NCBI RefSeq assembly: GCF_000732725.1 | Contig: NZ_JPNB01000002.1 | Location: 1,178,001-1,242,000, forward strand | Source of the DNA: Kineothrix alysoides | GTDB taxonomy: Bacteria; Bacillota; Clostridia; Lachnospirales; Lachnospiraceae | DNA length: 64,000 nucleotides | Reading direction: 5' to 3' | In this document: in pieces, positions 1,527 through 8,763 of the stretch | How positions within the stretch are numbered: position 1 is the stretch's first letter | Layout of the letters: each line of letters starts with the position of its first letter | Translations under genes and position numbers: made by a program | The notes under the pieces: generated by a model | The model's database searches: none | What the model saw: only the letters and a program-made list of their open reading frames with translations | Told to the model about the DNA's origin: nothing

Positions 1527-3251
1527 ATGAAGACGGACTGGGATGGAAAGCTAAGCAGTAAGGAAGAGTTCCGGGAGCTGCTATTGGAGATTGTGAATCC
1601 TCTGATTCCCTATTACAGTGAGGAAAAAGCGGAGCTTAATTTAGGTGTGACGGCAACGACTTATGGGAGAAGAACAATTGAATTAGAAGCATTTTCACGC
1701 CCCTTATGGGGCTTGGTCCCTTTCTGGGCAGGCGGCGGAAAAGCACCTGAATTTGAAGAAATATACAGGAAGGGCCTGGCAGCAGGTACGAACCCCGATA
1801 GCCCGGAATACTGGGGAGGCTTTCGTTCTTTCGATCAGCGGTTTGTAGAAATGGCGGCAATTTCCTACGGACTGATTTTGTCACCGGAAAAGACGTGGGA
1901 TCCGCTTTGTGAAACAGAGAAGGATAATCTGGCGAACTGGCTCTATGGAATCAATGAATATAACCTTCCTATCTGCAACTGGATTTTGTTTGCAGTTCTC
2001 GTGAATGTTGCGCTGAAAAAGCTGGGAAGAAAATATGATGCCAAGAAGCTGGAATATTATTTGAACGGCGCAGATACCTTTTATCTGGGGGACGGCTGGT
2101 ATCAGGACGGAGATTCCGGGCAGAAGGATTATTATGTGTCCTTTGCCATTCATTTTTATACCCTCTTTTATGCCAGAGTCATGGAGGAAGAGGATAAGGA
2201 GCGAAGTCAGATTTACAAAAAGCGGGCGGAACTTTTCGCAAAGCAGTTTATCTACTGGTTCGATGATAACGGAGCGGCTCTGCCTTACGGACGGTCTTTG
2301 TCCTACCGCTTTTCTCAGGTCAGCTTCTGGTGCGCATGCCTGATCGCAGATGTGACGCCTTTTCCGGTAGGAGTGATAAAAGGCTTGATAGTAAGACATT
2401 TATGTGACTGGATGAAAAAGCCGATTTTTGACAGAGACGGCGTTCTGACCATAGGCTACGGATATCCCAACCTTGTTATGGGAGAGCGTTACAACGGCCC
2501 AGGCTCTCCTTATTGGGCGCTGAAGACCTTCGCGGTTTTGATGCTGCCGGACGACCATCCTTTTTGGCCGGCAAAGGCGGAACCTATGCCTGAACTGGAG
2601 ACACAGATACAGCTTCCCTATGCCGATATGATGATATACCGTTATGAAAATCATACTACCGCTTTTGTACCGGGGAAATACAGTCCCTCCGGTCACGGAC
2701 AGACTCCCGCCAAATACGGGAAGTTTGCCTATGATACGCGGTTTGCCGTTAACATGGCGAAATCCACATGTGAAATCCATGAGGCTGCACCGGACAGCAT
2801 GCTGGCTTTTTATATCAACGGGTATGTGTATGTACGCAGAGGATGCCAGGACTTTAGCTTGTCTCAGGAGGGCGTGATTTCCAGATGGTCGCCTTATCCG
2901 GGAATATCGGTGGAGACAGTAATTACGCCCACATCTGCCGGACATATCAGGAAGCATACGATAGAAAGCGACGTGGAATGTGAAGCCTATGACTGCGGAT
3001 TTGCGGTAGAAATCGATGTGGAGGGAGAAAAGCTGACCGAAAGCGGTTCTATGGCAAGAGTGGAGAACTGTTACTGCTTTTGTGAGGTTACGGCAAAGGG
3101 AGGTGAAGGCAGAGGAAATGTGATTGGAGCCGACCCGAACACCAATTTGCTCCATCCAATGACGAGAATCCCTGCGGTCTGCTATTCCATAAGCAAAGGA
3201 AGAAATAAAATCGTTACGGAGGTAACAGCGCAGTACGACAGAAAGTGGTAA
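1527..3251 (+). CDS. DUF2264 family protein, probable glycoside hydrolase
   Basis: A 574-residue protein of the DUF2264 type. The N-terminal half is an alpha-helical toroid with the family signature around TYGRRTIELEAFSRPLWGLVPFWAGGG. The C-terminal part is beta-rich, resembling heparinase-like proteins. I recall some DUF2264 proteins being placed in GH154 with glucuronidase activity, but that is memory, not shown here. Start choice: a TTG at 1506 overlaps the GH88 stop, and ATG 1521 abuts GGAGGT; ATG 1527 lies 6 bases after GGAGGT and is preferred. There is no signal peptide, so the substrate would be an imported oligosaccharide. It follows the GH88 gene directly and probably works with it on uronate-containing glycans. 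Confidence 0.82.
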   Translation: MKTDWDGKLSSKEEFRELLLEIVNPLIPYYSEEKAELNLGVTATTYGRRTIELEAFSRPLWGLVPFWAGGGKAPEFEEIYRKGLAAGTNPDSPEYWGGFRSFDQRFVEMAAISYGLILSPEKTWDPLCETEKDNLANWLYGINEYNLPICNWILFAVLVNVALKKLGRKYDAKKLEYYLNGADTFYLGDGWYQDGDSGQKDYYVSFAIHFYTLFYARVMEEEDKERSQIYKKRAELFAKQFIYWFDDNGAALPYGRSLSYRFSQVSFWCACLIADVTPFPVGVIKGLIVRHLCDWMKKPIFDRDGVLTIGYGYPNLVMGERYNGPGSPYWALKTFAVLMLPDDHPFWPAKAEPMPELETQIQLPYADMMIYRYENHTTAFVPGKYSPSGHGQTPAKYGKFAYDTRFAVNMAKSTCEIHEAAPDSMLAFYINGYVYVRRGCQDFSLSQEGVISRWSPYPGISVETVITPTSAGHIRKHTIESDVECEAYDCGFAVEIDVEGEKLTESGSMARVENCYCFCEVTAKGGEGRGNVIGADPNTNLLHPMTRIPAVCYSISKGRNKIVTEVTAQYDRKW

Positions 3252-3904: not shown

Positions 3905-4751
3905 ACTGCGCGTATTTCTTAGGAGATATTCCTACGGCCTTGGTAAAAGCCTTTAAGAAGTTGCTGTAATCGTTGAAGCCGCATTGACCGCAAACTTCCG
4001 TAACGGAAATTCCCTCGTTCAGCAGAGCCTTGGCGATGGTGATTCTTCTTGCGGTAATATATTTGTTGATAGTAGTGCCTGTGGTAGATTTGAAAATGCG
4101 GCACAAATAAGAGGAGCTTAAATAGAAATATTCAGAAAGCCGTTCTAAGGTAATGTCTTCAGAAATATGCCGGTTAATGTAGCTGAGAATATCATCCACC
4201 TGCGCATGGTTAGTAACAGGCGTCTCCGTATATTCCCTATGGCAGGACTCATAAAAGGTTCGGTTGAGAAAGACCATGAGGTCGGAAAACGCAGCGCGCT
4301 CCATTAAATCGCAGCCGAAGCCTTCGCTATCGGCTATTTTATGTATCAAATAAATAAAGCGTTTGCTCATTTCCGGGTCCAAATGAAGCTTGTGAGGGAG
4401 CACGTCGAATCTATGAGTAAAGCAATAGCTTAAATCGGTCTGATCAGAGGAAATCTCCTGCAAATAATCAGGATGTACAGAAAGAACAATCCTCTCGTGT
4501 ACGCCGGTATCTACCTGCGTCAAATAATGGCTTTCATATTGATTGATAAAGAAAATATCTCCGGGCTCGATATCATAAAAGCGGTTGTCTATTAAAAACT
4601 GCTTTCCTCCGGATATGGAATAATAGATTTCGCAGCAGTCATGAATGTGCATGTCCATCGTCTTTTCATCGCTATAAAGATGCGCAAGAGCAAAATACTT
4701 ATTGGTAATACAATGCTGGGTTGCCATTTTACACGATGTAAATTCCTTCAT
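3894..4751 (-). CDS. AraC family transcriptional regulator
   Basis: A 285-residue regulator. The N-terminal cupin sensor domain (about residues 25-110) shows MHIHDCCEIYYSISGGKQ and DIEPGDIFFINQYESHYL. The C-terminal AraC-type double helix-turn-helix (about residues 185-285) shows ITLERLSEYFYLSSSYLCRIF and VTEVCGQCGFNDYSNFLKAF followed by GISPKKY. It is transcribed divergently from kduI across a 212-bp gap and is convergent with the YesL-like gene, overlapping it by 11 bp. It most likely senses a uronate or oligosaccharide intermediate and activates the flanking operons; this is inferred from position. AAAGGATTG lies ahead of the ATG on the minus strand. Confidence 0.92.
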   Translation of the reverse strand: MKEFTSCKMATQHCITNKYFALAHLYSDEKTMDMHIHDCCEIYYSISGGKQFLIDNRFYDIEPGDIFFINQYESHYLTQVDTGVHERIVLSVHPDYLQEISSDQTDLSYCFTHRFDVLPHKLHLDPEMSKRFIYLIHKIADSEGFGCDLMERAAFSDLMVFLNRTFYESCHREYTETPVTNHAQVDDILSYINRHISEDITLERLSEYFYLSSSYLCRIFKSTTGTTINKYITARRITIAKALLNEGISVTEVCGQCGFNDYSNFLKAFTKAVGISPKKYAQFNS

Positions 4752-5903: not shown

Positions 5904-5975
5904 TGTATATCATTTGTTACCGTGGGGCCAAAGGCTGATGAGTAACGAACAACAAAAAGAAAAGGAGATATGAAT

Positions 5976-6782
5976 ATGAGCGGATTAATGAACAAATTTT
6001 CACTGGAAGGCAAAGTAGCATTGATAACAGGAGCTTCTTACGGAATCGGCTTTTCGATTGCCGCTGCCTATGCGGAAGCGGGAGCGACTATTGTATTTAA
6101 CGATATTAAACAGGAATTAGTGGATAAAGGCCTTGCGGCATATGAGGAAAAAGGAATCAAAGCTCACGGCTATGTATGCGACGTGACGAACGAAGAGCAG
6201 GTACAGGAAATGACAGCGCTTATTGAGAAGGAAGTAGGAGTAATCGATATTCTTGTAAATAATGCAGGAATTATTAAGCGTGTTCCTATGTGCGATATGA
6301 CGGCAGCGGAGTTCCGTCAGGTAATCGATGTGGATCTGAATGCGCCCTTTATCGTCTCCAAGGCGGTAATTCCCGGCATGATCAAAAAAGGACATGGCAA
6401 GATTATAAACATCTGCTCCATGATGAGTGAGCTGGGACGCGAGACGGTATCTGCTTACGCGGCTGCCAAGGGCGGACTGAAGATGTTAACTAAGAATATC
6501 GCTTCTGAATACGGTGAATTCAATATTCAGTGCAACGGTATCGGGCCCGGCTATATCGCTACGCCTCAGACGGCACCTCTTCGCGAGATTCAGGCTGACG
6601 GCTCCAAGCATCCTTTTGACCAGTTCATTATCTCTAAGACTCCGGCGGCGCGTTGGGGAGAAGCGGAGGATTTGCAGGGACCGGCAGTGTTCCTTGCATC
6701 GGATGCTTCGGATTTTGTGAATGGGCATGTGCTTTATGTGGATGGTGGTATTCTTGCTTATATTGGGAAGCAGCCGCAGTAA
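5976..6782 (+). CDS. kduD: 2-deoxy-D-gluconate 3-dehydrogenase, SDR family (KduD)
   Basis: A 268-residue classical short-chain dehydrogenase. It would reduce 3-deoxy-D-glycero-2,5-hexodiulosonate to 2-keto-3-deoxygluconate with NAD(P)H. Visible features are the TGASYGIG nucleotide-binding loop (residues 18-25), NNAG at 95-98 and the catalytic S148, Y161 and K165 (YAAAK). The C-terminus carries the usual VNGHVLYVDGGI. ATG 5976 lies 8 bases after AAAGGAG, whereas ATG 5970 lies only 2 bases after it, so 5976 is chosen. An annotation as gluconate 5-dehydrogenase is possible by similarity alone, but kduI upstream and KDG kinase and aldolase downstream favour KduD. Confidence 0.92.
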   Translation: MSGLMNKFSLEGKVALITGASYGIGFSIAAAYAEAGATIVFNDIKQELVDKGLAAYEEKGIKAHGYVCDVTNEEQVQEMTALIEKEVGVIDILVNNAGIIKRVPMCDMTAAEFRQVIDVDLNAPFIVSKAVIPGMIKKGHGKIINICSMMSELGRETVSAYAAAKGGLKMLTKNIASEYGEFNIQCNGIGPGYIATPQTAPLREIQADGSKHPFDQFIISKTPAARWGEAEDLQGPAVFLASDASDFVNGHVLYVDGGILAYIGKQPQ

Positions 6783-6821
6783 TGTTTCAATGGGTGGTTG
6801 AGGTTGTTGGGGGGTTGTGAG

Positions 6822-7107
6822 AATTTTATGTACAATTGAGGGGTGCTGAGGGCTTTCTTCGGTGTATTCGGTTTCTGTTCCGGCGCGAACGGCTGTATTT
6901 TCTAAAGGAAACCGGGAGTGTGTCGGTAACGGACGGGCCGGCAGCAAAGTACATCCATGTACTGTGCTGCCTAAATGCCGCATCCATGCGGCATTTTCCC
7001 TGGGTGTTGAAGGTTTCCTTAAGAAAATGCAAGCCGTTGGCTTAAAGAACTGAAACCGAATACACCGAAGAAAGCCCCGGGAAGGCTGTGAAATTGTACA
7101 TAAAATT
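6822..7107. repeat. 286-bp nested inverted-repeat element (MITE-like or structured RNA)
   Basis: The 536-bp gap between kduD and the RpiB-like gene holds a large imperfect palindrome. The outermost arms are perfect: AATTTTATGTACAATT (6822-6837) and its complement (7092-7107). Inside, about 25 bases at 6850-6874 (starting GGGCTTTCTTCGG) pair with 7053-7076. Further in, a 6896-6913 segment ending AAAGGAAACC pairs with a 7011-7027 segment. The central part has two smaller hairpins: GGCAGCA/TGCTGCC (with inner AGTACAT/ATGTACT) and AATGCCGCA/TGCGGCATT. No transposase is present. The regularity suggests a small non-autonomous mobile element or a long structured RNA. The rest of the gap (7108-7319) shows no gene. 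Confidence 0.8.
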
Positions 7108-7319
7108 AGCGAAGGTTACGGGTTTTGTAATTGTTTTTGATACATTATGTTAGAGAAAAAGAATGATGAAGGGTTAATGGGTATTTAAAAATAAAACTGA
7201 TTTAAGAAAGAAAATAGGGTAATGCGGAGAAGGAAATATAGAGAAGGGAATACGGAAAAGGCAACATAGAGAGGGATGTGTTGTCATGTGGATGTTAAGG
7301 AAAGGAGTATGGAAGAAAA

Positions 7320-7961
7320 ATGAAGATAGCTTTAATAAATGAAAACAGTCAGGCGGCTAAGAATGGGTTGGTTTGTGATACTTTGAAAAAGGTGGTGGAG
7401 CCTCTTGGTCATGAGGTATATAACTATGGTATGTATAGTGCGGAGGATGTGAATGTGCTTACCTATGTGCAGAATGGTATTCTTGCGGCTGTGCTTTTAA
7501 ATGCGGGGGCGGCTGATTATGTGGTGACGGGTTGCGGTACGGGGGAAGGGGCTATGCTGGCTTGTAATTCTTTTCCGGGAGTGTTGTGCGGACATATTGT
7601 GGATCCTTCGGATGCATATATGTTTGCGCAGATTAATGATGGAAATGCAATTGCGCTTCCTTTTGCGAAGGGTTTTGGCTGGGGGGCGGAGCTGAATCTT
7701 GCATATATTTTTGAGAAGTTGTTTTCCTGTGAAGGGGGGCAGGGTTATCCGAAGGATAGGGTTATACCGGAACAGAGGAATAAGAAGATTCTGGATGAGG
7801 TAAAGAAGATAACGCATCAGGATATGGTAACGATTTTGAAGAATCTGGATAGGGAGTTGGTGAAGGGAGCCTTGGCAGGGGAGCGGTTCGAGGAATATTT
7901 CTTCGCAAATTGCAGGGAGGATGGGATAGCAGCCTGCGTAAGAGAGATTTTGGAAGGTTAA
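7320..7961 (+). CDS. RpiB/LacAB family isomerase, DhuI-like
   Basis: A 213-residue protein of the ribose-5-phosphate isomerase B family, longer than housekeeping RpiB (about 150 residues). The N-terminus MKIALINENSQAAKN and the segments VVTGCGTGEGAMLACNSFPGV and YPKDRVIPEQRNKK resemble what I recall of the DhuI proteins of streptococci. Those convert 4-deoxy-L-threo-5-hexosulose uronate, the KduI reaction. The context (KduI, KduD, KdgK, aldolase) supports a uronate role rather than pentose phosphate metabolism. The C-terminal 50 residues are helical and peculiar to this subfamily. RBS AAAGGAG lies about 12 bases before the ATG. Function is inferred, the family is fairly sure. Confidence 0.85.
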   Translation: MKIALINENSQAAKNGLVCDTLKKVVEPLGHEVYNYGMYSAEDVNVLTYVQNGILAAVLLNAGAADYVVTGCGTGEGAMLACNSFPGVLCGHIVDPSDAYMFAQINDGNAIALPFAKGFGWGAELNLAYIFEKLFSCEGGQGYPKDRVIPEQRNKKILDEVKKITHQDMVTILKNLDRELVKGALAGERFEEYFFANCREDGIAACVREILEG

Positions 7962-7974
7962 ATGGGGTGAAGAT

Positions 7975-8763
7975 ATGGCGGTTCTGGCACTTAAGGTTCT
8001 CGATAAAAACGGAAAGACAGTATGTGTAAGCAGCGGGGAAGATTATGTTAGTCTCGTATGTACTAAGGAATATGCGGAGGGTGACCGTATTGTCCTGGAA
8101 ACCTCGGAGAAAAATATTCATGTAATATTGCAGGTGGACGATGCTATGGGACCGGCCTTTGTATATATTACAGATAATGTGTCGTATCAGATTCCTTTCG
8201 GAGAAAAGCGGATTTGCTACTCGCCCAAGGTATTTTACGGAAGCAGGCATTATTTATATGCGCGGATGGCAAGGGAAGATGAAATAAAGAGTTATAGGAA
8301 CCTTGCGCTGAATGTATGTGATCAGCATGGAGAGACAAATTGTTATCCTCATGCGGAGGCTAATGTGGAGACGAGAGGAGAATCTGTTTTTGCTGCCCGC
8401 AACGCCATTGACGGCGTATGTGAGAACCGTTCTCATGGAGAATGGCCCTATGAATCGTGGGGAATCAATAGGCGGGAGGATGCGTATATGAGCGTGGATT
8501 TCGGGCATGAGGTGGAGACGGACAAAATCGTTTTGTATACCCGTTCCGATTTTCCTCATGATAACTGGTGGAAACAGGTAACGCTGACGTTTTCCGATGG
8601 AACGAGCATAGAGTGGGACTTGGAAAAAAGCAGTCTGCCTCATATTCTGGAATTCGGGAAAAAACGGATCACATGGGTGCGCTTCGGCAATTTAATAAAG
8701 TCGGATGACCCCTCGCCGTTTCCGGCATTGAGCCAGATAGAGGTATACGGAACAATTGTGTAA
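7975..8763 (+). CDS. Cytoplasmic discoidin-like (galactose-binding fold) protein
   Basis: A 262-residue protein without signal peptide or membrane segment. The N-terminal ~100 residues are beta-rich and unfamiliar. The C-terminal ~160 residues look like an F5/8-type C (discoidin) domain: RNLALN at the start, FAARNAIDGVCENRSHGEWPYESWGINRREDAYMSVDFG, then VETDKIVLYTRSDFPHDNWWKQVTLTFSDG and a final ALSQIEVYG strand. Such domains usually bind carbohydrate. It lies 13 bp after the RpiB-like gene and 18 bp before the aldolase, inside the uronate operon. It might be a sugar-binding accessory or an unrecognised enzyme; the function is unknown. Confidence 0.7.
   Translation: MAVLALKVLDKNGKTVCVSSGEDYVSLVCTKEYAEGDRIVLETSEKNIHVILQVDDAMGPAFVYITDNVSYQIPFGEKRICYSPKVFYGSRHYLYARMAREDEIKSYRNLALNVCDQHGETNCYPHAEANVETRGESVFAARNAIDGVCENRSHGEWPYESWGINRREDAYMSVDFGHEVETDKIVLYTRSDFPHDNWWKQVTLTFSDGTSIEWDLEKSSLPHILEFGKKRITWVRFGNLIKSDDPSPFPALSQIEVYGTIV

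Follow-up and report, generated by a model that had tools for sequence, protein, structure and literature searches.

MITEs are short elements that have no transposase gene, carry inverted repeats, are accompanied by target duplications and reach many copies. CsrB- and RsmZ-type RNAs, which sequester CsrA, collect many CsrA sites within one RNA. As of 2014, the only CsrA-sequestering RNAs on record were said to come from Gammaproteobacteria (PMC4333381, in its available text). The CsrA idea for the TwoAYGGAY family (RF01731) is already in print in the same text, where the family was matched to the CsrA motif, with validation called in progress, and where sequestration was proposed by the RMfam authors; putative binding is plausible. 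The available text of the discovery paper describes TwoAYGGAY as probably an RNA and scores cis-regulation 'n', probably not (PMC2864571), and the Rfam type for RF01731 is Cis-reg. For CsrA, the available text of a 2020 review gives the SELEX consensus RUACARGGAUGU, in which ACA and GGA are invariant and GGA lies mostly in hairpin loops, and leaves it an open question whether FliW and sequestering RNAs act jointly in any species (PMC7652899). In yet another setting, double changes that restore hairpin pairing in one event have been explained by template switching in replication (PMC8794818, in its available text).

The window analysed here is a 64,000-nt stretch of the Kineothrix alysoides genome (G000). 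An initial annotation recognized a nested palindrome at 6822-7107, and an inverted-repeat search of 6700-7250 confirmed it, with three arm pairs enclosing two central hairpins. We conclude that this element is probably a non-autonomous transposon-like palindrome with a TwoAYGGAY centre, of which the dispersed copies are candidate CsrA decoys and the arms are probably kept matched by template switching. The features of the region are as follows, with G299 denoting another genome of the genus.

5970-6782, plus strand: upstream gene, SDR family, gluconate 5-dehydrogenase/KduD-like (profile matches)
6786-7299, no strand: stretch absent from G299, an insertion in this lineage or a secondarily enlarged gap
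6809-7134, no strand: approximate extent of the dispersed repeat (long nucleotide matches in G000 and G299)
6822-6837, no strand: left arm of the outer inverted repeat, AATTTTATGTACAATT, 16 nt, 100% complementary to 7092-7107
6850-6880, no strand: left middle palindromic arm, 31 nt, 97% complementary to 7047-7077
6882-7044, minus strand: TwoAYGGAY RNA core (RF01731), 96 bits, E 1.8e-17, model positions 1-168 of 168
6940-6971, minus strand: hairpin 2, loop AUGGAU at 6953-6958, context GUACAUGGAUGUAC (sequence and predicted fold)
6973-6996, minus strand: hairpin 1, loop AUGGAU at 6982-6987 (sequence and predicted fold)
7047-7077, no strand: right middle palindromic arm, partner of 6850-6880
7092-7107, no strand: right arm of the outer inverted repeat, partner of 6822-6837
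7320-7961, plus strand: downstream gene, RpiB/LacAB-like (PRK09273; profile match)

Membership of the core in TwoAYGGAY is settled: its 96 bits stand against an Rfam cut-off of 43, and the entire model length is covered. Both AYGGAY loops required of the family are present, each as AUGGAU on the minus strand, and the context of hairpin 2 is a single base away from the CsrA SELEX consensus (PMC7652899, available text). Both loops resemble CsrA sites and are predicted to bind CsrA. Minimum folds reach -162 kcal/mol on the plus strand and -143 kcal/mol on the minus strand, whereas shuffled sequences average -88 and -70, respectively (z about -13 and -14), and 0 of 100 shuffles equalled the native fold on either strand. 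The fold is strong on both strands because the DNA is nearly palindromic, including a third, innermost inverted repeat at 6894-6913/7012-7031 (20 nt, 90%). Although both strands fold, the minus strand alone matches the known RNA, and because the neighbouring genes lie on the plus strand, a TwoAYGGAY RNA would be antisense to them. Mechanically called open reading frames (ORFs) of at least 80 aa overlap the cores at 9 of 14 loci (15 cores); these span 85-183 aa, except for one of 370 aa that reaches 66 nt into its core (L021), and in the window a minus-strand ORF of 165 aa overlaps the core.

The limits 6822-7107 hold for the palindrome but not for the shared repeat, which is wider. A query covering 6400-7700 gave long matches that start at query positions 410-423 and end at 721-735, corresponding to roughly 6809-7134, with one match in G299 that continues to 751 (window position 7150). 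The perfect 16-bp inverted repeat of the window copy sits some 13-27 bp inside these edges, its outermost ends being worn, and this inverted repeat is recognizable only in a subset of copies. Promoter-like matches in 6600-7400 are no more frequent than chance (2 versus 1.4 expected); the core contains neither, and one, at 7264-7235 on the minus strand, is upstream of it. A terminator reading was rejected: terminator-like matches number 3 against 0.9 expected, which does not explain the family.

The upstream gene had been called kduD. A KduD-like SDR is indeed encoded there, but the KduD models among the matches shown fall below cut-off, and the best match is to gluconate 5-dehydrogenase (NF005488, over cut-off). 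From its stop codon to the ATG of the rpiB-like gene the distance is 537 nt in the window versus 14 nt in G299, where the 3′ part of the upstream gene is 90% identical to that in the window. In four further relatives (G309, G310, G311 and G312) the two genes are also neighbours, separated by other gaps, none of which matches the element; G301, G304 and G306 match the upstream gene only. Given the 14-nt gap in G299 and the lack of an element in the other relatives, the window copy is most simply a lineage insertion. A target duplication was sought by comparison with the empty site in G299 and none was recognized, the outer ends of the copy being worn. The gap also holds DNA beyond the shared repeat, with about 23 nt to its left and some 165 nt to its right. 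The right-hand piece (7135-7299) is purine-rich and absent from G299. Elsewhere in the uronate cluster, a 262-aa ORF at 7975-8763 has no NCBIfam match at E 0.001.

About 16 distinct copies of the element occur in this genome. A nucleotide search returned 29 matches, comprising 17 places and 12 weaker opposite-strand entries that arise because a palindrome matches itself reversed. The Rfam model gives 16 hits over cut-off, 15 of them distinct, and one further copy comes from BLAST only. C1:4273 and C2:1930494 probably represent a single copy, since their flanks agree and both are located roughly 4 kb from the end of a contig; the second was left out of the counts as a duplicate. The start of C1 and the end of C2 apparently overlap there (same TwoAYGGAY copy, flanks with small indels), so these contigs are probably adjacent. 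The abundance of copies disposes of the objection that the palindrome might be unique and, together with the empty site, led us to drop a degraded gene duplication as the origin of the arms. The right end of the element (7083-7137) also matches two solitary places (C2:480460 and C1:525180), possibly remnants of half-lost copies.

Across the genus, 12 of 16 genomes carry the family, with 3-58 hits each by the Rfam model: G300, 58; G307, 53; G311, 28; G302, 21; G306, 17; G000, 16; G309, 14; G312, 13; G303, 10; G301, 6; G299, 4; and G310, 3. The remaining four genomes scanned (G304, G305, G308 and G313) gave zero hits. For the comparisons below, 42 of the 58 copies in G300 and 22 of the 53 in G307 were fetched, mostly the best-scoring ones, and one row (G168, locus L124, core misplaced near a contig start) was left out, such that 156 of 157 rows were kept in later counts.

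For relatives of the window copy in two sister genomes, G300 and G307, there is good support for MITE-like mobility; for the window copy itself we infer it. Many G300 copies terminate in CACGGAAATCAATTTT and its complement, which form 16-bp terminal repeats. The 13-mer GGAAATCAATTTT occurs 41 times in G300, 30 times in G307 and 0 times in G000, with a reversed control at 0 in each; the lack of exact matches in G000 indicates that the subfamily of the window copy has other ends. Target duplications of 8-9 bp are evident in 16 of 48 rows from G300 and G307, where at least 8 of 9 flank bases match (4 perfect), compared with a mean of 0.36 and a maximum of 4 when right flanks were shuffled in 2,000 trials. 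In the remaining 32 rows the flanks agree at 2-7 of 9 positions, and the 48 rows contain locus L236 twice, one reading being spurious.

Derivatives with the same ends also exist among the terminal-repeat sites of G300, where the inspection covered second ends and cores. Locus L245 measures about 50 bp, scarcely more than two ends, and has a target duplication, which suggests that the element ends suffice for spread. L230 is a truncated derivative, and L235 (G300:C1:1394500-1398500, at about 1843-2223) retains typical ends and arms, but the sequence they enclose is unrelated and lacks the core. The palindrome of L235 extends about 14 bp into its flanks. The initial annotation had offered a MITE-like element, an extended structured RNA and a domesticated regulatory cruciform as alternatives. 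The first two apply jointly, as a dispersed element with a catalogued RNA core; what had not been foreseen is that the family already stands in Rfam and that its RNA would run antisense to the operon.

The arms are matched within a copy rather than conserved between copies. In G300, the arms of 40 of 42 copies align over 60-142 bp beyond the core (51 and 10 bp in the remaining two), and they are at least 90% complementary in 34 of the 42 with gaps counted, and 74-90% in the rest. For two subfamilies (13 and 14 copies, picked for long, well-paired arms), arm identity within a copy is 0.950 and 0.965, whereas between copies it is 0.770 and 0.769, against 0.752 and 0.727 for shuffled sequence; core identity between copies of the same subfamilies is 0.879 and 0.853. 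Core-adjacent arms in G000 are more alike between copies. One G300 pair (C2:470641 versus C2:240761) shows 11 mirrored differences and 1 mirrored indel with 0 one-sided changes over 93 bp. Three copy pairs that are at least 90% alike, and that are not independent, total 16 mirrored and 9 unmirrored differences; mirrored counts lean upward because copies were preselected with arms at least 85% complementary.

The initial annotation looked to covariation in the stems as a sign of structured RNA. Double changes are plentiful: 32 of 33 predicted core pairs have one in at least 1 of 28 sequences, and 290 changed cells are double versus 7 one-sided. However, this covariation lacks the G.U intermediates that selection on an RNA would be expected to leave. 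Among arm pairs from the 146 of 157 copies that could be aligned, with G.U not scored as a match, 9,255 are Watson-Crick, 206 G.U, 204 A.C and 241 other (for G300 alone, 70 G.U and 75 A.C). The core pairs of 28 cores from 27 genomes comprise 807 Watson-Crick, 12 G.U, 18 A.C and 72 other (p 0.36). If RNA pairing on one strand were under selection, G.U should outnumber A.C; the missing bias speaks against such selection and points to DNA template switching instead.

These arm and core counts support maintenance of the stems at the DNA level, and template switching between arms during replication is the simplest cause of the matched arms, to which misalignment could contribute, as could weak selection acting on individual pairs of long stems. 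A tRNA control of 6 tRNAs in the fetched DNA has 8 G.U and 0 A.C (Fisher p 0.003 versus the core and 0.007 versus the arms), although few tRNAs were counted and ARAGORN favours stems that pair. For the two core hairpins with the loop fixed by letters alone, G.U and A.C number 17 versus 9 (p 0.17), or 15 versus 6 when each genome, position and type is counted once (p 0.08). Three other hairpin tallies were discarded: 42 versus 7 (p 4e-7), biased because hairpins were detected with G.U counted as paired; 40 versus 55, where false hairpins had been picked; and 28 versus 43, with wrong loops in the rest-of-genus set. Stem pairing that may be driven by DNA leaves the conserved loops unexplained.

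A purely selfish MITE, in which the hairpins do nothing as RNA, the GGA loops come from an ancestor and the link with csrA reflects host lineage or motility, would account for copy numbers that range from 0 to 58 within one genus, for mixed gene orientation, for the core-free or truncated derivatives and for the lack of any G.U preference. We nevertheless consider this explanation unlikely, and conservation of the core provides one reason. At two copies common to G000 and G299, the cores are identical at 158 of 163 and 161 of 163 positions (97-99%), the arms at 84-97%, and the flanking and intervening DNA at 85-91% (1,725 of 1,960, gap columns left out). Pooled over both sites, the core is more conserved than the surrounding DNA with p 1.2e-9.

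The loops provide a second reason. Using CA-N-GGA-N-G as the search pattern, the hairpin 1 context CANGGANG was found at the expected place in 138 of 156 cores, and the same pattern occurs for hairpin 2 in 88 of 156. All four bases appear at the first N of hairpin 1, such that GGA is retained on one strand while the base preceding it may be any of the four letters. On that strand most core loops read ANGGA. The motif ACANGGATGT is present in 89 of 156 cores when the sense strand is read and in 0 when the antisense strand is read (shuffled mean, 0.05), and the strict consensus RUACARGGAUGU occurs in 4 of 156 core sense strands. GGA is absent from one or both loops in some genera; L140, for example, has CACGATG twice and neither of its loops contains GGA.

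Co-occurrence with csrA bears on the selfish explanation from both sides. Among 299 Lachnospiraceae genomes, 45 have the RNA, 154 have csrA and 44 have both (hypergeometric p 1.7e-13, ignoring phylogeny); the corresponding numbers are 36, 125 and 31 for 391 Clostridia (p 2e-12, also ignoring phylogeny). The association recurs outside Lachnospiraceae, where 25 of 30 carriers have csrA against 111 of 375 genomes overall (p 3e-10, again ignoring phylogeny). Carriers exceed the Rfam cut-off in 43 of 45 cases (Lachnospiraceae) and 27 of 36 (Clostridia), the remainder matching at E 0.001 only, and csrA genomes exceed the Pfam cut-off in 152 of 154; the RF01731 scans of both samples used stricter filters that lose weak matches. 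No csrA was detected in the Lachnospiraceae carrier G168, in five carriers of the Clostridia sample or in the genus carriers G301, G303 (97% complete) and G310. Three of the four copy-free genomes of the genus have csrA, and the link is absent inside the genus (16 genomes), an uncoupling that a selfish element would permit. FliW is found in 149 of the 299 Lachnospiraceae and in 42 of the 45 RNA carriers, so a motility or flagellar lifestyle confounds the csrA link. In the present genome, csrA encodes a 72-aa protein and lies directly behind fliW, and G300 combines csrA with its 58 TwoAYGGAY hits. Genome G143 has at least 9 hits, a weaker csrA match than usual (E 1e-14) and no FliW found, and is a possible case of the RNA standing in for FliW.

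Control of the adjacent gene by each copy, which might serve as a leader or 3′ end that responds to CsrA, is improbable. The Rfam type, the frequent position of the nearest called ORFs at about 100 nt or less from the core and the functions of some neighbours would suit a cis-acting RNA: of ten neighbour proteins scanned at 8 loci, four concern sugar uptake or glycoside breakdown, although the remainder are of varied kinds. Locus L015 (G000:C3:203000-210400) would also suit it, with cores at 2963-3125 and 4183-4345 that are inverted copies around ribH, both common to G299, the second lying between ribBA and ribH and antisense to both. Against this, the downstream neighbour runs antiparallel to 12 of the 16 G000 copies but to 15 of the 42 G300 copies, counts that are approximate because gene calls are mechanical and core-overlapping ORFs were excluded, and that do not establish every copy as intergenic. 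This mixed orientation to neighbours among the 16 and 42 copies led us to drop a fixed cis-regulatory position, and the 'n' score of the discovery paper (PMC2864571, available text) also opposes cis action. It is less credible still that the element acts inside the operon as an attenuator or processing hairpin of the plus-strand message, with no connection to CsrA. The strong fold of that strand and the position of the extra DNA, which separates the stop codon of one gene from the ribosome site of the next, would suit this reading; against it, the element is found at this place in one lineage only and the family occupies other sites in both orientations.

We therefore return to a transposon-like palindrome that disperses candidate CsrA decoys. 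Under this model, the element would have inserted between two uronate-cluster genes, antisense to both, and through its hairpin it may also slow transcription of the operon or cause the message to be cut. If the minus strand is transcribed, its two hairpins would present a pair of CsrA sites, and the dispersed copies would jointly titrate CsrA, adding to the FliW antagonist encoded beside csrA. Template switching between the arms during replication would keep them complementary at the DNA level. With fliW adjacent to csrA and about 16 putative decoys, this genome makes the question of joint action directly testable.

More tentatively, TwoAYGGAY in general may be the cargo of a self-templating mobile palindrome that scatters CsrA decoys, such that copy number tunes a CsrA buffer in Clostridia beside FliW and template switching writes much of the covariation of the RNA family. 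The element may then be a mobile means of spreading regulatory decoys. There is also a warning for RNA discovery: covariation almost without G.U intermediates can stem from repair of a DNA palindrome and need not prove RNA structure.

Like bacterial MITEs, the element is short and multi-copy, with inverted repeats and, in G300 and G307, 8-9-bp target duplications; unlike them, it has a conserved RNA-like cargo and arms that differ between copies but mirror each other inside one copy. As with the template-switch hairpins (PMC8794818, available text), double changes restore pairing; those hairpins belong to RNA genes, including rRNA, whereas here the arms of a dispersed element align over 60-142 bp in 40 of 42 G300 copies. 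The TwoAYGGAY literature, in its openly available main text, describes no variable palindromic arms, terminal repeats, target duplications or within-genome spread, and a search of such text found none tying the family to a mobile element. The window core belongs to the same family as RF01731 and has both AYGGAY loops, but the Rfam model comprises 168 positions only. Like CsrA-sequestering RNAs of the CsrB or RsmZ type, TwoAYGGAY has paired hairpins with GGA loops. In contrast to those RNAs, it would offer two putative sites per RNA at many loci, as a candidate decoy in a host that also has FliW.
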